This document shows positions 14,516 through 29,779 of a stretch of 39,203 nt of DNA, piece by piece. Made by a program: the position numbers and the translations under genes. The notes beneath the pieces were generated by a model. The model was not told where the DNA came from. It saw nothing but the letters and a program-made list of their open reading frames with translations, and did no database searches. The stretch comes from a virus. Location: positions 1 through 39,203 of the IMG/VR virus record IMGVR_UViG_3300007735_000709, one strand, 5' to 3'. Each line of letters starts with the position of its first letter. Position 1 is the stretch's first letter.

Positions 14516-16276
14516 TTATCTTCTAATTACACGTCTAGCGCTTGCCGTTCCTTTACCGCTTGAACTTAAACTAGAAAGTAAACTTTGAATATCTGGGGCG
14601 CCTTGTTGTGCTTGTGGCGGTACTGGAATAGGACCTCCTGGTGATGCTTCGGGAGCAGGGGACGTTTGCTCAACCATTTGTTCGGCACCAGCAGGAGGTA
14701 ATTCTGGTGCAAATATATCTTCTATTGCATCCTCAAGTGTTACGCCTTTTTGACGTGCTTTAATAACTTCTGCTATTTTTTTAACCACAGTTGTAGGGTC
14801 TTGTCCTTGAACTGCCATTTGTGGTATTGCTTGAGAGTATGCTTGCATTGATGCAATTAATGCAGTTCTCATATCTTCAATTTCAATTTTTTCTTGTTCT
14901 TGAGTTACGTTAATACCAAATGGTAACTCACGCATAGCCATATCTTTGGAGATTAATTTACCTCCAAGGGCTTGCAACATAAAAATAAGTCCCTGTGCTG
15001 GATTAAGACCAGCAAGCATGCCGTAACGAACATCGGCTGAATAATCTTTTTTGATATCCTTTGATGGCTTGTAGTCAATGCTGTATGGAGAACCAGCATC
15101 TACACCACGAACTGTCTTTTCAAAGTCAAAGTATTTTTCATCTACTTCAAAACAAACAGAAATAACATCTTTAAGTGCTGATGCAAAGATAGCCTGAGCA
15201 GATTTAACTTGTGTATCAAAGCCACCCATAAGTGCTTGTACACCTTGGCCAGTAATAATTGACGCATCAATATTACCAGTACGTGACTCTGGATATCTAG
15301 TTCCAGTTCTTAACTCTTGTTGTAGTAATGTTTGTTCAGTAAATGCACCATTAGGTATAGGCAGTTCAACACGGCGTACACCTGCTGGATTGGCTGTGCG
15401 GATAATAGAATCTCCGCCAAACTCAATTTCTTGAACATCTTGTGGAACAACAATTGGTGATTGAACAGATTTCTCTGCTGCTTCCATCGCAAGTAATGCG
15501 AACCTATTACGAAGCAGTTGGATACCTAGAACATCATCAAACTGTCCACGCATTTCACCATCAACACTAGGACGTCTAGCAACTACAATCATCATTTTTC
15601 CAAGCGGATTAATTGCTTGAGATAAAATTAAATTGCTACGGCTAGGAACATAAATAACAGATTGGTCTTTATCGTAATAACGAATAAAATCAATTCTGGC
15701 ACTTAGGTTTTGTTCATAACCTTCTTTGCCTAGTAATTGCATTTCATACTCTGGGAATTGAGATACTAATTCAGCAATTGATAGTTCATATCTTTTAGCA
15801 AAGGCAATGCAACGTCCGTAGCGGTCAAACTCTGGGTAAGCCCCAATCGGACTTTCTACACGGATACGTGGCAGCCCTGCCTCTTCGTCTAATTCAACTA
15901 TGAATGGGACGAAACCAAATGTGATGTAATGGTCTGCACCTGTGTACATCTGCACTTGTAAATCTGAATGAGCAAAATAATTAGAAGCAATACGAGTACG
16001 CTTATCGGCAAAAGAACGAGCACGGTCAGAGACCTGATTAGCGGCCGAGCAGTTAACCGCAGGAAGTGGCGCCATAACTTCTGACAAGTCACGGGCAACA
16101 ATGTCAATAAAATTTGCAACGACATTTGCGTCTACACCTTCTGGAAAAAATGCTGGATAGACAGATGAAATTTTACCTTTACGGACGGCAAGTACATCTT
16201 GTGCCCTTGCATCTCTATCAGCAGCACGGTCTTTAAGAGAATCTACTCTTGCTGCAATTTGATTTATTGATAACAA
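14516..16276 (-). CDS. Portal protein (586 aa)
   Basis: The product is 586 aa, usual for portals, and lies directly behind the terminase. It has an N-terminal helical clip region, a mixed core (YITFGFVPFIVELDEEAGLPRI, ESPIGAYPEFDRYGR), the helical stem-like QLLRNRFALLAMEAAEKSVQ, and a disordered Pro/Gln-rich C-terminus. The best start is the TTG at 16276, preceded by AAGGAAT at proper spacing; no ATG gives a better fit. It would form the dodecameric DNA gate of the head and dock the terminase. Confidence 0.85.
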   Translation of the reverse strand: MLSINQIAARVDSLKDRAADRDARAQDVLAVRKGKISSVYPAFFPEGVDANVVANFIDIVARDLSEVMAPLPAVNCSAANQVSDRARSFADKRTRIASNYFAHSDLQVQMYTGADHYITFGFVPFIVELDEEAGLPRIRVESPIGAYPEFDRYGRCIAFAKRYELSIAELVSQFPEYEMQLLGKEGYEQNLSARIDFIRYYDKDQSVIYVPSRSNLILSQAINPLGKMMIVVARRPSVDGEMRGQFDDVLGIQLLRNRFALLAMEAAEKSVQSPIVVPQDVQEIEFGGDSIIRTANPAGVRRVELPIPNGAFTEQTLLQQELRTGTRYPESRTGNIDASIITGQGVQALMGGFDTQVKSAQAIFASALKDVISVCFEVDEKYFDFEKTVRGVDAGSPYSIDYKPSKDIKKDYSADVRYGMLAGLNPAQGLIFMLQALGGKLISKDMAMRELPFGINVTQEQEKIEIEDMRTALIASMQAYSQAIPQMAVQGQDPTTVVKKIAEVIKARQKGVTLEDAIEDIFAPELPPAGAEQMVEQTSPAPEASPGGPIPVPPQAQQGAPDIQSLLSSLSSSGKGTASARRVIRR

Positions 16277-16285
16277 TATAATTCC

Positions 16286-18172
16286 TTATCCGTAAGTTTG
16301 TTGCCATTGCTCTGCAAAGGCTTCGTCTAAATTAACTGAGTATCTTTTTTCTGTTTGTGCTCTTGTTGCCCAACGATTTCTTGCGTACTTACTAATGTTA
16401 TTAGTCTGTTGCATAAACTCCCGTGCTCTTAACACAACAAACCATAATGCCATAACACAGTCAGTTTTACCACGAGTATTAGGTTTCCAAGTTATTAACT
16501 GCTGGACTAATGCCTTCATACCCTCTGAGTTATCTGTTGAAGGAAACTCAATAATGTTATTCTTTTGGAACTTATCATCTCTTAAAGTTCCCATTAGCAT
16601 AGACATACCTGCTACACCAAAGTTAGAGTCCCATTTATTTTTGTTAGTATAATGAGATTCTAAACGACAGCCATATGCTGCTAACCAATTTCTTAAATTA
16701 TCATCCAATGCATAGGCTTTTTGATGAGCATTAATCTCAACTCGTAATTCTTGTGGTCTGTATTTTTCTACCAAATGCTCAATGATGTCTTGAATTTTTT
16801 GTGGAGTAGGGTCTGACATATTTACGCAATCAAGAACATATATTTTACTATCTGCTCTGTTATATGTGGCCACCACAAACGCAGCATTCCCGCCCATTGC
16901 GGGGTCAAATCCAATGATTGTGTACCCCTCAATGTTGCGGGGATGTCCTACGGCACCTGCTTTCAGCAGGCCACGTTTGCGTTGGCCGTTGATACAACCC
17001 TGAACAATTGCGGGTGGAAATATACTGTCTTCAGAAACATCTTCTTGTTGGTAAACCAACGCCCATGTTTGCGGTGTTACTTCGCTTCGTCTGCGGAATA
17101 AGGCTTTGCCGTCCCATTTCGGGAAGTACCCTTCTTTGTCAGGTATGTCAGTATCCCCATCCCAAGGAAGGTCCGACTTAGGCCAGAGCGTTTTCCAATC
17201 TTCAGGCTTTTCTGAATATTCCAAAACAGCAGGCATGCCCATATAAGTAAAAGGGCTTTTACCACCAGACCAGTGTTTGGCCTCACGGAGTTCTTTGTAG
17301 AAGTCTTGCGCTGCAATTCGTGTCCCTACGATTAGTAACTTACCATTTTTACCCAAACGGGTAATAACTTCTTTTTGTAGCCAGTTGATTTGTTTTTCAT
17401 ACTCATGGGCGTTTGCTGTAGTAATGCAGTCATCTAAAATGATGAGGTCAGCACGTGCACCGTAAATCTGTCCACCCATACCAAGTGCTTGGATGGTGGG
17501 GTCTTTCTCGCTAGAATTTCTAGCATCGCTCCCAAGGTAAACGGTATCAACTCGCCAAGTGTCTGAATCTTCTTTCCAACCACCTTCGGGGCCAAAAGTT
17601 GTTTGCAACTTTAACCAACGTGGATGGGAGAGTCTCTGCTTGATTGCGTACACGAACTCACGTGCTTTGATTAACGTTTTAGAAACCACGATAATGCGGA
17701 TATTTGGATTGAGAGCGATACGGTATGTGGAGTAGTTTACGGTTATGACTGTGCTCTTGGCATGCTCAGGTGGCACGTTAAGCAAGAGACGGGCTGGGTC
17801 ACCCTTCTCGTAAACCATACTAGGGTGCAGCCATGAAGGCTCTCTATCCTCTAGTAAGTCAATCCAATCTTGATGGTGGGGAAATACCCTCTGTTGTAAA
17901 AAAATTTCGGAGAACCTAGGGAAATCTATTTCTTCTTTTGGGATACCTAGGGCTGCAAGGGAAGCATCCTTTGCGGTAGCCTTAGCCTCTGTTAGGTCAG
18001 CAGCAAACTTCTTATCCCTAAGACACCAGATTCTTACAGTGTCAGGTTTTTTGCCGCACATATCCATAGCCTTATGGACAGAGTGGCCTTCGGCCACCAA
18101 GGCTAAAACCTTAGCCTTTGCTCCTGCCATAGCATGGGTTCTGGGGTTATTGCCCCCTTTTTGAAAAGTCAT
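16286..18172 (-). CDS. terL: Terminase large subunit with N-terminal HTH (628 aa)
   Basis: Residues 18-65 look like a helix-turn-helix (AEGHSVHKAMDMCGKKPDTV) of the kind found in small terminase subunits. The ATPase follows: a deviant Walker A, PPEHAKST (134-141), and Walker B LIILDD (243-248). The nuclease half carries the acidic residues expected for an RNase H-like fold (TIIGFDPAMGG, LRVEINAH, GKTDCVMALW). No separate small subunit is visible, so the N-terminal HTH may stand in for it. It is the first gene of the leftward late block and sits next to the structured intergenic region, where its promoter must lie. Confidence 0.92.
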   Translation of the reverse strand: MTFQKGGNNPRTHAMAGAKAKVLALVAEGHSVHKAMDMCGKKPDTVRIWCLRDKKFAADLTEAKATAKDASLAALGIPKEEIDFPRFSEIFLQQRVFPHHQDWIDLLEDREPSWLHPSMVYEKGDPARLLLNVPPEHAKSTVITVNYSTYRIALNPNIRIIVVSKTLIKAREFVYAIKQRLSHPRWLKLQTTFGPEGGWKEDSDTWRVDTVYLGSDARNSSEKDPTIQALGMGGQIYGARADLIILDDCITTANAHEYEKQINWLQKEVITRLGKNGKLLIVGTRIAAQDFYKELREAKHWSGGKSPFTYMGMPAVLEYSEKPEDWKTLWPKSDLPWDGDTDIPDKEGYFPKWDGKALFRRRSEVTPQTWALVYQQEDVSEDSIFPPAIVQGCINGQRKRGLLKAGAVGHPRNIEGYTIIGFDPAMGGNAAFVVATYNRADSKIYVLDCVNMSDPTPQKIQDIIEHLVEKYRPQELRVEINAHQKAYALDDNLRNWLAAYGCRLESHYTNKNKWDSNFGVAGMSMLMGTLRDDKFQKNNIIEFPSTDNSEGMKALVQQLITWKPNTRGKTDCVMALWFVVLRAREFMQQTNNISKYARNRWATRAQTEKRYSVNLDEAFAEQWQQTYG

Positions 18173-18424
18173 AGTCCTGTCCCGTTTTCATCAGTTGTAA
18201 CAGTTCTTATATACAGTCTGTAACGCAAGTCCCCCAAGGACTTGCTACTGTTAAAAAGAAACAGCCTCTATATAGTATAACCTGTTCAAACAGCCAAAGC
18301 GAACGCTTTGAAACAAAATATTTTTTTTAGTATGCCAAAAATTAGTACAAAATAGGACAAACTGGGACTGGTATGGGGGATACTTCTGTACGGGAAAATC
18401 TTTTATGTAGAGTACATAGATGAG
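18173..18424. promoter_or_regulatory. Divergent intergenic region with AT-rich promoter candidates and short hairpins
   Basis: No gene is seen here. Perfect stems occur at 18225-18245 (GCAAGTCC/GGACTTGC) and 18295-18310 (CAAAGCG/CGCTTTG, 2-nt loop). An AT-rich block at 18271-18281 (TATAGTATAAC) could serve as a -10 region on either strand. A TTGGGG to TATATA pair with 18-nt spacing on the minus strand would point at the terminase. These promoter calls are weak; position between divergent blocks is the main argument. Confidence 0.35.
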
Positions 18425-18510
18425 TTAGCGACTGGTTAATAAGCCTAGGGTCATTTAGACCCTTCGGCTTAAGGGCTGATAGGGCTGTCAGCACTGTAAC
18501 AGTTCGCTAA
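18425..18510. ncRNA. Multi-branched structured element (three-way junction)
   Basis: TTAGCGA (18425-18431) pairs with TCGCTAA (18504-18510), and CTG/TTA inside pair with TAACAG, closing a junction. Two hairpins sit inside it: 18441-18470 (AAGCC T AGGGTC / GACCC TTC GGCTT) and 18475-18492 (GCTGA/TCAGC). A further hairpin, 18522-18557 (CCTCTGGC/GCCAGAGAGG), follows. No coding frame explains it. It could be an RNA in either direction or a DNA-level structure. Confidence 0.45.
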
Positions 18511-18574
18511 TCAGGCCTGACCCTCTGGCTAAGTTTAAAACTGATGCGCCAGAGAGGTTCCGATAAATTAAATT

Positions 18575-18942
18575 GCTAACTGATTTCTTAAATCAGTTTC
18601 CCAATTTAATTTGGCTACAATTTCCTGAATAGAAATTGTTAGCCGCTTATCAGACTTCGTGTCTGATAAGCCTGAACCAGCCTAAGCAAAACAGTAGCCT
18701 GACGCAAGCATCTGCTGGCAACTCGTTAGAGTTGGCAAGCAGTTGTGCTGGCGTGGCTACTGCGTTGCCTGTAATGAACTATTGGCAAAGGCTTGTCCTT
18801 TGCCTAGAGTTCCCCATTACGGTGTCATCAAACGCCCTTGCTCTTGCGTTTGATTACTGTTCTGAGACTGGCTGTCTGAACTGATTTACAAGACTGCCAG
18901 TTCAGCAACCTGAAATGTCGAGCAACTTCGTCATGACATTTC
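18575..18942 (-). pseudogene. Non-coding inverted copy of the 101-aa gene, hairpins retained
   Basis: Read on the minus strand from 18942, this stretch aligns in order with 19096-19436. Shared blocks include GAAATGTCA, ACGAAGTT, ACATTTCAG, GCTGAAC, TTCATTACA, GGCTACTGTTT, AGGCTGGTTCAGG and AAATCAGTTAGC. The equivalent ATG (18939) is followed by TCA and then TGA, so no protein is made. The hairpins of the coding copy are all present, several lengthened or with compensatory changes: 18912-18942, 18862-18905, 18827-18854, 18771-18820, 18692-18762, 18645-18671 (11-bp perfect), 18613-18644 and the terminator-like 18578-18598. It may be a decayed duplicate, or a structured RNA descended from the gene. 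Confidence 0.7.
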
Positions 18943-18949
18943 TGAGACA

Positions 18950-19098
18950 CCTGCTATTCTGCCTTTTTTCTGACAGAAGCGCATCATAACACAGGGGCAC
19001 CCGCCATCAAATAACTGGAAAGAGTGTTATTTGACAGCAGGACCCACCCCTGTGTTATTTGATGCCTGCCAGAAAAAACTGGCAGAAAGCAGGTAGAA
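18950..19098 (+). promoter_or_regulatory. Structured 5' leader of the OB-like gene, sequesters its RBS
   Basis: CCTGCT-TTCTGCC (18950-18963) pairs with GGCAGAAAGCAGG (19081-19093), closing a large fold and covering the AGCAGG ribosome-binding site. Inside are a 17-bp stem (18981-18997 with 19047-19065, 2-nt bulge) and a 9-bp apical stem (19007-19015 with 19026-19034). A second hairpin, CTGCCAG/CTGGCAG (19066-19085), uses the same GGCAG bases as the closing stem, so the two pairings exclude each other. This is the layout of a translational switch. It is also the centre of the inverted duplication (about 19020). Confidence 0.6.
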
Positions 19099-19404
19099 AT
19101 GTCACACGAAGTTACATTTCAGAACGCTGAACTTGCTGGTCTTGAAATCAAGACAGCCAAGAACAGCAATCAATACGCAAAGGGCGTATTGATTCTCCGT
19201 AATGAGGAAGGCAAATTCCAAGCATCTTTGCCGTTCATTACATTCACCGCAGTGGAGCCACTGGCAAAACTGCTTGAGTCAACTCCTAGAGTTGCTGGCG
19301 CAGACGCAAAGCGTCCTGTGGCTACTGTTTCAGGCTGGTTCAGGACTTCTCAAACACCTGATAAGGCTTGGCTAACGAATTTCACAGTAAATTCTGTAGC
19401 CTAA
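19099..19404 (+). CDS. OB-fold-like, probable ssDNA-binding protein (101 aa)
   Basis: The 101-aa protein alternates short beta strands: VTFQNAELAGLEIKTA, YAKGVLILRNEEGKFQASL, PVATVSGWFRTSQ, AWLTNFTVNSVA. This resembles a small OB-fold single-strand-binding protein; recognition is by pattern only. It opens the rightward early block and has its own terminator, so it is a single-gene transcript. Its coding sequence holds consecutive stems, including the start codon hairpin (19096-19102 with 19114-19120), an 11-bp stem (19168-19178 with 19184-19194), 19199-19241, 19250-19327 and 19370-19401. The sequence is visibly more GC-rich than the next genes. A non-coding inverted relative lies at 18575-18942. 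Confidence 0.7.
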   Translation: MSHEVTFQNAELAGLEIKTAKNSNQYAKGVLILRNEEGKFQASLPFITFTAVEPLAKLLESTPRVAGADAKRPVATVSGWFRTSQTPDKAWLTNFTVNSVA

Positions 19405-19410
19405 TAAATC

Positions 19411-19441
19411 GGGCTAACTGAGAAATCAGTTAGCCCTTTTT
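19411..19441 (+). terminator. Intrinsic terminator after the OB-like gene
   Basis: GGGCTAACTGA (19411-19421) pairs perfectly with TCAGTTAGCCC (19426-19436) around a GAAA tetraloop, followed by TTTTT. It lies 7 nt past the stop codon. The inverted copy has a matching but GC-poorer hairpin at 18578-18598. Confidence 0.9.
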
Positions 19442-19493
19442 ATTTATCTCCACTAATGATGGCTAGTTATATCACCAATAAAGAGGTGCTAAC

Positions 19494-19808
19494 TTGACAG
19501 CCAATTATCAGCCCATCAATGATGAGTTCCTTTGTGATTCAAAGGAACTTCTGACAATACCTAATGTGTTATACGAGTCAATGATATACACACACAGCAC
19601 TAAGCCCATGACAATAACTCATGCATTATGCGAGCCATCATTACACCTTAACAAAGCGGCCCAAAAATACCACGCCCAGCAAGATGGGTTCGTCAAGGGG
19701 TCGCAGTCAATGATAACTAATTGCTCGCCCTTGACTAACCCGCTGGGCATGGTGTGGATTAGCCGCTTTATTAAATTAATAAAGTGTAATGAAAGGATAA
19801 ATAAATAA
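19494..19808 (+). CDS. Hypothetical protein from a hairpin-rich frame (104 aa)
   Basis: A TTG start at 19494 lies behind AAGAGGTG at good spacing, and the stop overlaps the next start (TAATG at 19808), both supporting translation. The protein (MTANYQPINDEFLCDSKELL onward) shows no domain I know and mixed composition. Two strong stems lie within it: AGTTCCTTTG/CAAAGGAACT (19525-19549) and a long imperfect hairpin, 19653-19769. The sequence may therefore be selected as RNA as well as, or instead of, protein. The start region TGACAGCC..ATCAGCCC is echoed, inverted, at 18473-18492. Confidence 0.5.
   Translation: MTANYQPINDEFLCDSKELLTIPNVLYESMIYTHSTKPMTITHALCEPSLHLNKAAQKYHAQQDGFVKGSQSMITNCSPLTNPLGMVWISRFIKLIKCNERINK
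19653..19769 (+). ncRNA. Long hairpin inside the 104-aa frame
   Basis: Nested complementary blocks occur in order: AAAGCGGC with GCCGCTTT (outermost), CCAC with GTGTGG, GCCCAGC with GCTGGGC, GGGTT with AACCC, and TCAAGGG with CCCTTGA (innermost). Five matched blocks over 117 nt are unlikely by chance in a coding frame. The structure could act in the mRNA, as an antisense target, or as a processed RNA. Confidence 0.5.
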
Positions 19809-19975
19809 TGAGTAAATTATATAGGGCTTGTGATAAATGTAGATATAATATAGATATAGTAGGTGTAAATGAATGTAAGTTTGATGAGCATGATTGGCAC
19901 GAGTTAAATATAACTGGTGTTGTTTATGTTATGTGTTGTAAGTGTGGTAAAGATGAGGAATACTTATGGAAATAA
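19808..19975 (+). CDS. Small zinc-ribbon-like protein (55 aa)
   Basis: The 55-aa product carries CDKC near its N-terminus (residues 8-11) and CCKCG near its C-terminus, two Cys pairs about 35 residues apart, with a beta stretch (LNITGVVYVM) before the second pair. This is a minimal zinc-ribbon layout. The ATG overlaps the previous stop (TAATG), and the 3' end overlaps the NADAR start by 10 nt. Strongly AT-rich codons differ from the GC-richer frame upstream. It may bind nucleic acid or a host protein; no target is evident. Confidence 0.7.
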   Translation: MSKLYRACDKCRYNIDIVGVNECKFDEHDWHELNITGVVYVMCCKCGKDEEYLWK

Positions 19976-20463
19976 ATAATTTAAGAGGTAGTTTTTTAAG
20001 TAATTTTTATGAAAGTTCTATAGAACTAGATGGTATAGTTTATAGAAATGCTGAGGCTGCTTACCAAGCCATGAAATCTAATGATAATTTAGTAAGAGTT
20101 AAGTTTATAAATTTAAATGGTGCGAATGCTAAAGCGCTAGGAAAAAGAATAGAGTTAAGAAAAGATTGGAATGATATTAAATTAGATATTATGTATAAAA
20201 TAATAAAAAATAAGTTTACGCAAAACCCTACCCTTACTAAGTTATTAGTAGATACTAATGATAAAGTAATTATAGAAGGTAATACTTGGGGAGATACTTA
20301 TTGGGGTATGTGTAAAGGTAAAGGAGAAAATCATTTAGGAAAAATCCTAATGAAAGTAAGAGAAGAAATAAAACTCTCACATCACAATGATGTGCTTGTC
20401 GAACTTTCCCGCCGCACAAGTGAGCGGGAAAGTTCTCACTCAAATGCAAAGGAGATAAAATGA
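19966..20463 (+). CDS. NADAR/YbiA-family protein (165 aa)
   Basis: The family core is clear: GSFLSNFYESSIELDG (8-23), YRNAEAAYQAMK (26-37), GKRIELRKDWNDIKLDIM (59-76), IIEGNTWGDTYWG (102-114) and NHLGKILMKVREE (122-134). NADAR proteins act on ADP-ribose-linked substrates, and members have been reported to remove ADP-ribose from guanine in DNA. A phage copy could thus counter DarT-type defence or trim NAD-related metabolites; that use is inference. The last 27 residues are not part of the domain and arise from sequence that also encodes a 12-bp hairpin (20401-20435). Its very AT-rich codons stand out. Confidence 0.85.
   Translation: MEINNLRGSFLSNFYESSIELDGIVYRNAEAAYQAMKSNDNLVRVKFINLNGANAKALGKRIELRKDWNDIKLDIMYKIIKNKFTQNPTLTKLLVDTNDKVIIEGNTWGDTYWGMCKGKGENHLGKILMKVREEIKLSHHNDVLVELSRRTSERESSHSNAKEIK
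20401..20435 (+). promoter_or_regulatory. 12-bp perfect hairpin before an AAAGGAG site (module 1)
   Basis: GAACTTTCCCGC (20401-20412) and GCGGGAAAGTTC (20424-20435) pair perfectly; AAAGGAGATAAAATG follows 12 nt later. A smaller stem (CACATCA/TGATGTG) lies just before. The hairpin falls in the 3' end of the NADAR gene and probably serves the next gene as a processing site or 5' stabiliser. Confidence 0.6.
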
Positions 20464-20843
20464 AAACAAGTAACCATGAACTAGTAATTAGTAATGGTAT
20501 TACTGTAACTAATGACTGCTACCAATGCACACAACTCAACGAGTTATGTGGAGAATGTCTAGACAAAAGAGAAGCACAAGCAGCAGATATAGCGCATGAG
20601 ATTGTTGACGAAGGCAATCTTACATATCTAAAAGTCTGGAGTAAACCAACTGATTGGACCCATGATAAGGGTGCTAATCACAAATGGACTGAGCGAGAGG
20701 ATGAATACCTTGACCCAGTAGTAGAAATGGCAGATAGATTCTTTGATTTAGAAGATGCCATTGAATTGCAAACATCTGAAACTATATGTTCTAGTTGTCA
20801 TTATGTTTACAATAAATATACAGTTTGTCCTAATTGCAATTAA
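20460..20843 (+). CDS. Acidic protein with two Cys pairs at each end (127 aa)
   Basis: The N-terminal part has CYQC and CGEC (about residues 19-42), and the C-terminus has CSSC and CPNC (within residues 109-126). So it has either two half-ribbons or one zinc ribbon at each end. Between them is an acidic region rich in Trp and Glu (KVWSKPTDWTHDKGANHKW). The ATG overlaps the NADAR stop (ATGA) and sits behind AAAGGAGATAAA. Zinc binding is likely; partner unknown. Confidence 0.75.
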   Translation: MKTSNHELVISNGITVTNDCYQCTQLNELCGECLDKREAQAADIAHEIVDEGNLTYLKVWSKPTDWTHDKGANHKWTEREDEYLDPVVEMADRFFDLEDAIELQTSETICSSCHYVYNKYTVCPNCN

Positions 20844-20853
20844 TTGAATAGCA

Positions 20854-20884
20854 GTTGCCCCTGTAACAAGTTGACAGGGGCAAC
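20854..20884 (+). promoter_or_regulatory. 11-bp hairpin before an AAAGGAG site (module 2)
   Basis: GTTGCCCCTGT (20854-20864) pairs perfectly with ACAGGGGCAAC (20874-20884). No U-run follows; AAAGGAG begins 12 nt downstream at 20897. This favours an mRNA processing or stabilising role over termination. Confidence 0.6.
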
Positions 20885-20908: not shown

Positions 20909-21208
20909 ATGAATAATGTAGATATAACTGGCTATATAAAGTCAGTTCGTGAAGCAGGAACTAGTAACTATAAAGTGTTACTAGCAAGCATCAGCCAACG
21001 AGATGCATTTGGCAAGTGTGTATACACTGGTCAGATAGTTGCAATGGATGATGAAGTTAAGGCACAGTTATTATCAGTGCCAATGCGTGATGGTGTATCA
21101 GATATCATCCGTGTCAAAGGTTCTTTAAAGACTTACTTTGACCGCCGTAATCCAGATAAACTGGAATCCCGTCAACAAATTGTTGCCCACTCAATAACAG
21201 TAGGGTAA
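20909..21208 (+). CDS. Small beta-rich protein, possibly OB-fold (99 aa)
   Basis: The 99-aa sequence reads as beta strands: VDITGYIKSVREA, YKVLLASISQRDAFGK, YTGQIVAMDD, and IIRVKGSLKTYFDR before the C-terminal SRQQIVAHSITVG. The ending is reminiscent of OB-fold nucleic-acid-binding proteins, but no diagnostic motif is present. It has a strong AAAGGAGATAGC site preceded by hairpin module 2 and followed by module 3, so it may be its own processed transcript unit. A second single-strand-binding protein is a fair guess. Confidence 0.6.
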   Translation: MNNVDITGYIKSVREAGTSNYKVLLASISQRDAFGKCVYTGQIVAMDDEVKAQLLSVPMRDGVSDIIRVKGSLKTYFDRRNPDKLESRQQIVAHSITVG

Positions 21209-21247: not shown

Positions 21248-21266
21248 CTATAACAAAGGAGATAAT

Positions 21267-21395
21267 GTGAGTAACGAGAGAAAGAATGGCAAAGCCTGGA
21301 AGAAAAAACCAAAGGTTCAAAAGAAAACAGGTAAGACAATAGGTGGATATAGTCCAGCCAAATTGGCTATCCGTGCACAGAAAAGAGGCAAGTAA
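21267..21395 (+). CDS. Tiny lysine-rich protein (42 aa)
   Basis: A GTG at 21267 lies 5 nt behind AAAGGAG; the nearby ATG at 21265 runs into TGA at once, so GTG is the start. The 42 residues are very basic (AWKKKPKVQKKTGKTIGGY), with a short C-terminal helix (AKLAIRAQKRGK). Its stop overlaps the next start (TAATG). Likely binds nucleic acid; no family recognised. Confidence 0.65.
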   Translation: MSNERKNGKAWKKKPKVQKKTGKTIGGYSPAKLAIRAQKRGK

Positions 21396-25293: not shown

Positions 25294-26058
25294 ATGGCAC
25301 AAGAAATAGATAGAGATAGATATGGTAGGCCATTAATAATTCCACCAAAAGGTGGTAAGCCAGTGGCTTATACACGTGCAACAACTATTGCTAATTCATT
25401 AGATGATGCATCAGCATTAACTGCTTGGAAAATGCGAATGGCAGCAATTGGTTTAACTACACGACCAGATATATTGCTATCAATAACAGCAGCACATGAT
25501 GATAAGTTGGCAGTTAATTCTTTAATTGAAGATGCTATGCAAGTAGCAGGTGCAAATAAAGCAGCCAACATAGGTACAGCAATTCATTCGTTTGCTGAAC
25601 AATTAGATTTAGGACATGACTTAGGCGTGGTGCCACCAGAGTGGATGCCAGATGTAAAAGCCTATGAACAAGCAACTAAGATTCTCAACAAACAGTTCAT
25701 TGAACAGTTTAGTGTGTTAGATAAATACAAAATTGCTGGCACACCAGATAGAGTTGTTGAGTATAAAGGCGAGTTATTTATTGCAGATATTAAAACTGGT
25801 CGTATAGACCATCCAAGTAATATCGCAATACAGTTAGCAATATATGCTAACGGCTTGCCGTATGATAGTGCCACGGCAAGCCGTGGTACATGGGGCGAAG
25901 TAAACAAAGATAAAGCAATCATTATTCATCTACCTGCAGGAACAGGCACGTGTAAGTTAGTGTGGATAGATATTAAAGAAGGCTGGAAAGGTTTACAATT
26001 AGCCATGAAAGCAAGAAAGTGGAGAGACCAGAAGGGTTTAACCACTACATTTGAATAG
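25294..26058 (+). CDS. PD-(D/E)XK nuclease, RecB/Cas4-like exonuclease (254 aa)
   Basis: The motif set is complete: GTAIHSFAE (94-102), GTPDR with Asp152, IADIKTG with Asp165 and Lys167, and IAIQLAIYA with Gln180. This is the RecB-type nuclease core. The first 60 residues (YTRATTIANSLDD, TAWKMR) match the N-terminal part of phage exonucleases of this kind. It likely resects DNA for recombination or degrades host DNA. An 11-bp perfect stem (25850-25860 with 25874-25884) lies inside the gene in the Gly-Leu-Pro codons after the Gln motif. Translation may be controlled by the upstream anti-RBS loop. Confidence 0.85.
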   Translation: MAQEIDRDRYGRPLIIPPKGGKPVAYTRATTIANSLDDASALTAWKMRMAAIGLTTRPDILLSITAAHDDKLAVNSLIEDAMQVAGANKAANIGTAIHSFAEQLDLGHDLGVVPPEWMPDVKAYEQATKILNKQFIEQFSVLDKYKIAGTPDRVVEYKGELFIADIKTGRIDHPSNIAIQLAIYANGLPYDSATASRGTWGEVNKDKAIIIHLPAGTGTCKLVWIDIKEGWKGLQLAMKARKWRDQKGLTTTFE

Positions 26059-26528: not shown

Positions 26529-26566
26529 TAAACGGGGGCTGAGTCGTGGTGCCCAGCCCCCGTTTA
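26529..26566 (+). promoter_or_regulatory. 13-bp perfect hairpin before an AAAGGAG site (module 6)
   Basis: TAAACGGGGGCTG (26529-26541) pairs perfectly with CAGCCCCCGTTTA (26554-26566). Only TATT follows, then AAAGGAG at 26571. It could act as a weak terminator or attenuator, but placement matches the other hairpin-RBS modules. Confidence 0.65.
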
Positions 26567-29119: not shown

Positions 29120-29779
29120 GTGACTGAGGCGTGGGTACAAGAGTATGATTTGTTGGTATCCACCCTTGCCATAGAATATTCCAGAAAATATTCTATAGTT
29201 GAAACTGCAGATATAAGACAGATTTTATGGATGTGGTTTGTTACCCATCCAAATAAATATACAGAGTGGTCTAAGTTACCACCAAAAGATAAAGAAAAAT
29301 TAATTGCTAAATCATTACGCAATGCAGCCATTACTTATTGTGAAAAAGAAAAAGCCCGTAAGTTTGGCTACGATATGGTTGACCTTTATTATTATGACCC
29401 ATCAGTTATTGAAGCATTTTTACCATCTATTATTTCAGGTAGTTATGAAATACCTATTAAAATAAAAGACCTTAACTTTAAACCAGATAAGTCAGGCCAA
29501 GTTACAGATGGAAATAATTGGTTAGTTCTTAGGGCAGATATAGAAAAAGCATACAACAAACTAGCAGAGGCAAAACAAAATATTTTAAGACTAAGATTTT
29601 CTGTAGAAAATTGCGAGTGGACAGAACTTGGTAAAGAATTAAATACATCTGCTGATGGTGCAAGAATGAGGGTTAGCCGTGCAATTAATTCTTTAATTAG
29701 AATACTGGGTGGATGGCGTACCTATACTGATACAGATAATATAGAAGTTAAAGAAGAAGAAGATGACACAAGAGCCTAG
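29120..29779 (+). CDS. Sigma-70-family (ECF-like) transcription factor (219 aa)
   Basis: It starts at a GTG (29120). The N-terminal half has a region 2-like helix set (EYSRKYSIVETADIRQILWMWF), and the C-terminal half has a region 4-like HTH: AEAKQNILRLRFSVENCEWTELGKEL, then TSADGARMRVSRAINSLIRIL. An acidic tail ends the protein. This two-domain layout is that of small sigma factors. It should direct host RNA polymerase to phage promoters, perhaps the late ones. Region 2 is divergent, so -10 contacts cannot be predicted. The next gene overlaps by 17 nt. Confidence 0.75.
   Translation: MTEAWVQEYDLLVSTLAIEYSRKYSIVETADIRQILWMWFVTHPNKYTEWSKLPPKDKEKLIAKSLRNAAITYCEKEKARKFGYDMVDLYYYDPSVIEAFLPSIISGSYEIPIKIKDLNFKPDKSGQVTDGNNWLVLRADIEKAYNKLAEAKQNILRLRFSVENCEWTELGKELNTSADGARMRVSRAINSLIRILGGWRTYTDTDNIEVKEEEDDTRA

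Follow-up and report, generated by a model that had tools for sequence, protein, structure and literature searches.

Organization of the locus

The window analyzed here is the whole stretch of 39,203 nucleotides of an IMG/VR virus record. Its genes for the portal protein (14516-16276) and TerL (16286-18172) are annotated on the minus strand, and beyond them lies the start region of the early operon with its leader (18382..18560, plus strand), which is common to relatives and contains a conserved TACGGGAAAATCTT. Two arms are inserted just downstream of this leader, the left arm on the minus strand at 18562..18985 and the right arm on the plus strand at 19060..19445. An alignment of the reverse complement of 18541-18985 with 19061-19460 reached a Smith-Waterman score of 248, while 300 shuffles gave a mean of 19 and a maximum of 27, which bears out the inverted duplication that had been proposed in the sequence-only reading. 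The limits given there were too short, as the similarity of the oppositely oriented copies extends from the promoters (about 18985 / 19060) to the 3' ends (about 18562 / 19445). As both promoters and 3' hairpins fall within this similarity, the duplicated unit comprised promoter, gene and terminator.

The right arm is the coding copy and contains a 5' hairpin, a second hairpin with the start codon inside it, the predicted 101-aa reading frame (19099-19404), which was confirmed, and an intrinsic terminator with hairpin and T-run (19411..19436, plus strand). The left arm, as delineated by alignment and consensus fold, is a non-coding inverted copy that forms a nearly perfect series of hairpins and in which the former gene is, as had been noticed, stopped at codon 3: it reads ATG TCA TGA, and ATG TCA TAA in the carrier genome L009. 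Both arms had been described as sharing the same hairpins including a terminator. This holds for 93 of the 130 left-arm pairs in the window, for which both bases are identical in the right arm, with one more kept despite one change, but 15 pairs are broken and 21 are without a counterpart; the left counterpart of the terminator hairpin is without the T-run, and the terminator scan found no T-run terminator after the left arm. Concerning individual stems that differ between the arms, ATCAATACGC versus ATCAAACGC constitutes a paired indel and the difference in the GGCTA helix a register shift, in which RNAalifold counts two double changes.

Two promoter-like sites, assigned by their match to the consensus, stand back-to-back between the arms and face outward. 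The leftward site (18983..19010, minus strand) reads TTGATG-16-TATGAT with a TG before the -10 box, and both hexamers are unchanged in the alignment of all relatives covering this stretch. The rightward site (19031..19060, plus strand) was read from the sequence as TTGACA-18-TTATTT with a weak -10 box; it is the mirror image of the leftward site and homologous to it, although a scan at 9 of 12 consensus positions listed the leftward site and not the rightward one. Both -35 boxes and the left -10 box are invariant in every relative covering them. A central palindrome (19007..19034) lies between the two -35 boxes. It contains AATAAC/GTTATT in the window and GGAAT/ATTCC in L005-L008, so that both sides differ, and this is the cleanest paired double change observed. 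Being located upstream of both predicted transcripts it cannot result from selection on the RNA of either arm; it is explained by template switching.

Carriers and relatives

A degenerate pattern scan for the element yielded 11 IMG/VR contigs. Both arms are present in 8/8 contigs spanning the locus, the other three end inside it, and no contig was shown to have one arm only. The carriers sampled comprise about ten distinct genomes of one lineage. A search with TerL found 423 relatives and the 80 best were retrieved; most relatives are without the element, even those with a TerL up to 95% identical, and relatives without the left arm are also without the right arm. Homology to the element-free relatives ends at 18411-18418 and picks up again near 21255-21395, which places the arms in a variable early interval. 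The nearest named records by TerL are the Planktophila phages OX376640/OX376641 (about 61%), followed by Streptomyces phages at about 45%. The carriers form a small group of freshwater phages, and the similarity of their TerL to that of Planktophila phages points to Actinobacteria as the probable host. The phages LanE43AprE7/F5 are cultured Planktophila phages (PMC10202952). These nearest named phages are of the same genome size class as the carriers and have a sigma factor in common with them, but their DNA matches neither the arms nor the early control region.

The arms were found neither in INPHARED phages nor in the bacterial genomes searched. A covariance model of the left arm matched only the arms of both sides, the opposite strand of these palindromic sequences and a single short hairpin, and gave no match in element-free relatives. 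An exact copy of the hairpin GCAAAGGACAAGCCTTTGC in two contigs was rejected as a homologue of the element and ascribed to chance, as the stretch fetched there contains no arms, no TerL and no similarity to the window. In L005 (5360-5600), and also in L007, L091, L096 and L099, about 200 nt are inserted between the right arm and the gene P0002; the insert has a closed multi-branched fold reusing the left-arm hairpin GCAAAGGACAAGCCTTTGC.

The early-operon start region, for which no match was found in Rfam, is diverged in the window. Its equivalents in the relatives L014-L090 start with the invariant TACGGGAAAATCTT, followed by about 160 nt. In many relatives the leader carries a GGGTCA/TGACCC hairpin, and its terminal hairpin AGTCTTCGGCGC..GCGCCTCAG is conserved in relatives and contains one true covarying pair.

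The right arm encodes a predicted SSB-like protein

The product of the right arm, P0001 (101 aa; 19099..19404, plus strand), gave no match of note by sequence to Pfam, PHROGs or the PDB. AlphaFold reached a pLDDT of 44 with the four sequences of P0001 itself, and a pLDDT of 69 and a pTM of 0.60 with OB topology upon addition of distant OB-like early proteins of relatives. A Foldseek search with this model returned SSB or PriB for all 50 PDB matches listed, with a best TM-score of 0.64. An SSB/PriB-like OB fold is accordingly predicted at moderate confidence, and only with the distant OB-like proteins added, which makes P0001 a likely SSB-like protein. A profile comparison of P0001 with these OB-like early proteins was not significant, and a common ancestry with them is therefore not supported by sequence. 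A type III toxin-antitoxin system was rejected: there is no tandem repeat array in 17500-20500 and the protein is SSB-like.

The right arm is under protein-type constraint. Third codon positions account for 11 of its 13 coding changes, and dN/dS is about 0.09 in the comparisons involving L005-L008. Its dS is 0 to 0.10, while dS of TerL in the same pairs is 0.24-0.83, except for the near-identical L003 (0.07). In the window's own fold, paired and unpaired positions of the right arm do not differ in variability (10/260 versus 6/126, p 0.79; 9/248 versus 8/131 in the repeat count). A consensus fold gives 2/236 versus 16/144, so that constraint on the fold of the right arm is conceivable in addition to that on the protein.

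Constraint on the fold of the left arm

For the left arm, 12 arms were aligned and RNAalifold predicted 181 pairs, some of them in a domain further downstream that we now attribute to the early leader. Variable columns within the left arm comprise 12/278 paired versus 49/146 unpaired positions (odds ratio 0.09, p about 2e-15). Between L001 and L008 only 1 of 262 stem positions differs, compared with 24 of 154 unpaired ones; pairwise divergence is 0.4-2.7% in stems and 9-20% at unpaired positions, and among L001, L004, L005 and L008 it is 0.4-1.2% in stems versus 11-16% in loops. Since consensus fold and conservation share one alignment, this test has a circular bias, and it was repeated with single-sequence folds, which avoid the bias but make a weaker test. 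The size of the circular bias can be judged from five control windows in TerL, in which the consensus-fold test gave odds ratios of 0.26-0.69, compared with 0.09 in the left arm. The single-sequence MFE test of the left arm of L001 gave an odds ratio of 0.26 versus 0.81-0.93 in the same five TerL windows, and over a longer region the single-sequence folds of the window and of L008 gave 0.30 and 0.23, respectively. Pairing positions of the left arm are thus more conserved than unpaired ones when measured against the TerL controls. Folding z-scores are -5 to -12 over most windows of 18401-19200.

It had been suggested that the fold itself was kept after coding was lost. This is supported for the left arm: stems are near-invariant, loops are free to change, and no genome spanning the locus lacks the left arm. 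The paired changes put forward in favor of an RNA fold do not prove it. Among the 12 left arms only 3 of the 181 predicted pairs show double changes, two of these belonging to a single local rearrangement seen in the window and in L003, and most pairs never vary; moreover, the stems are nearly pure Watson-Crick on both strands, and the cleanest double change is explained by template switching. A search of 18150-19900 against Rfam 15 at gathering and relaxed thresholds gave no credible match, the best sub-threshold hit being far below the cut-offs. We consider it very probable that the left arm descends from the right-arm unit as a non-coding element under selection for its fold.

Two kinds of change within the arms were observed besides. 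One stem of the left arm (minus strand, about 18868-18910) is longer in the window and in L003 owing to a multi-base change common to both, with CTGAACTG facing CAGTTCAG, which is consistent with a template-switch event. An identical base change is shared by the two arms within individual genomes at 19344 and 19366 and their left counterparts (L008 only; L005-L008). In a hand-chosen count these concerted changes amount to one exact site (L008 only) and one near-exact site, and they are suggestive, not more, of conversion between the arms.

Origin and nature of the left arm

The data are best explained by an accessory unit of promoter, SSB-like gene and terminator located just after the early leader, of which a second copy would have arisen in head-to-head orientation; fold-back template switching at the central palindrome would be the simplest route. 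The SSB-like protein is still encoded by the right copy. The left copy has lost coding but kept its outward promoter-like site, and with its hairpins held by purifying selection it would now represent a structured element of about 420 nt without coding function, which is most likely transcribed. We assign a probability of roughly one half to this reading as a whole, i.e., a fold-back duplication of a self-contained SSB unit with a fold-selected and probably transcribed left copy. Transcription from the leftward promoter and the fold-back origin are the steps that we infer from sequence features; the inverted duplication itself, the presence of both arms wherever the locus is spanned, the loss of coding, the strong constraint on left-arm pairing and the protein-type constraint on the right arm are observed.

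A possible though less probable explanation is that the left arm acts at the level of DNA, forming single-stranded or cruciform hairpins beside an SSB-like gene, e.g., as a priming or origin-like site, any transcript being incidental. The stems are nearly pure Watson-Crick, with G-U pairs making up 3-6% on either strand versus 11% in shuffles (left arm and leader domain), and both strands fold about equally well, with consensus energies for the left arm alone of -144.1 on the minus and -138.9 on the plus strand. About equal strand stability and rare G-U pairs do not pick out a single RNA strand and would suit a DNA-level element, as would the adjoining SSB/PriB-like gene and the minimum of the cumulative GC skew at 18-19 kb, where transcription diverges. 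Against this, most relatives replicate without the element, which therefore is not a required origin, and the outward promoter-like hexamers are conserved. The variable pairs of the left arm moreover fit the minus strand slightly better (5 kept and 4 broken) than the plus strand (5 kept and 7 broken), although the G-U changes only lean slightly toward the minus strand.

If the left arm is transcribed, it might form the 5' leader of a transcript running leftward into the TerL operon, paired with the right arm as divergent leader or antitermination RNAs. Outward promoters with homologous leaders and the scan result of no T-run terminator beyond the left arm would agree with such an arrangement, which nevertheless appears unlikely: the same non-coding region upstream of TerL is also present in relatives that do not carry the arms, the right arm has its own terminator at its end, and a leader of this kind would be long at about 420 nt.

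It is likewise improbable that the hairpins are a mutational by-product, made and repaired by template switching in a left arm that is a functionless pseudogene. Hairpins and multi-base compensatory changes are documented products of template switching (PMC8794818), and both the difference in the central palindrome, lying between the -35 boxes, and the stem-lengthening change shared by the window and L003 conform to this mechanism. The left arm resembles hairpins born in this way in its perfect Watson-Crick stems and multi-base paired changes, but its stems have stayed constant over a long period of divergence, and for this selection is required. Errors in copying would be expected to carry changes to both sides of a stem and not to prevent them, and the contrast of 0.4-1.2% divergence in stems with 11-16% in loops would be left unexplained.

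A recent decaying duplicate too young to have diverged, to which the 90-99% identity of the left arms to that of the window might point, is very improbable, since TerL dS of up to 0.83 and unpaired left-arm divergence of up to 20% in the same pairs mean that neutral sites had time to change, and the stem/loop contrast contradicts it.

Possible function and comparison with known systems

Our working choice is a transcribed structured RNA, and regulation of or by the SSB-like gene is the leading, if weakly held, functional guess. The left RNA might, tentatively, be a decoy or regulator for a binder of the homologous right-arm mRNA, e.g., the SSB-like protein. That it would mimic the mRNA of the SSB-like gene and regulate this gene or its protein in trans, as a phage mRNA-derived decoy, is a rather doubtful extension.

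T4 gp32 is a phage single-stranded DNA-binding protein that represses its own mRNA. The right arm is similar in its predicted SSB-like product and in the start codon inside a hairpin; different from the T4 scheme is the second, non-coding inverted gene copy, and autoregulation, known for gp32, is putative at most here. The put sites of HK022 are short two-hairpin antitermination RNAs and, as predicted here, structured RNAs lie just downstream of outward-facing promoters; in contrast to put, about 420 nt are involved and one arm is coding and ends in a terminator. GOLLD, ROOL and OLE are large structured phage and bacterial RNAs (PMC12286853). The left arm is, like these, long, dense, highly paired, non-coding and located in or near phage genomes, but it has no Rfam match, measures about 420 nt, derives from its coding neighbor and is known in one phage lineage.

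The two arms constitute a naturally controlled pair, in which one copy is kept as a protein and the mirror copy as a fold. With such a pair the conversion of a coding sequence into a functional non-coding element can be tested directly, and the evolution of hairpins can be apportioned between selection and template switching. If transcribed, the left arm would constitute a structured non-coding element in phages whose hosts may be abundant freshwater Actinobacteria.

Structured early mRNAs in the genome

Excess folding relative to codon-shuffled controls was found for the right-arm gene (z -3.8), and likewise for P0002 (-5.8), the NADAR gene (-4.8), the OB-like gene at 20909 (-4.0) and an early gene of the relative L090 (-4.9); two downstream genes were without excess, and the mean over 118 gene segments was -1.3. 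A structured mRNA special to the right arm is therefore rejected, as other early genes have an equal or larger excess. Structured early mRNA is a feature of the genome, and the unusual part is the fold-only conservation of the left arm.

P0002 (19494-19808) is a TTG-start ORF found only in carriers of the arms. Its dN is about equal to or above dS, yet at the DNA level the 3' part (about 19650-19770) hardly varies and forms a long hairpin. In the NADAR-domain gene (19966-20463) the second half is strongly over-folded compared with codon-shuffled controls. A sigma-factor-like gene, as in the cultured Planktophila phages, is located at 29120-29779. Further long perfect hairpins are present in the early half at 20401-20435, 20854-20884, 25850-25884 and 26529-26566.
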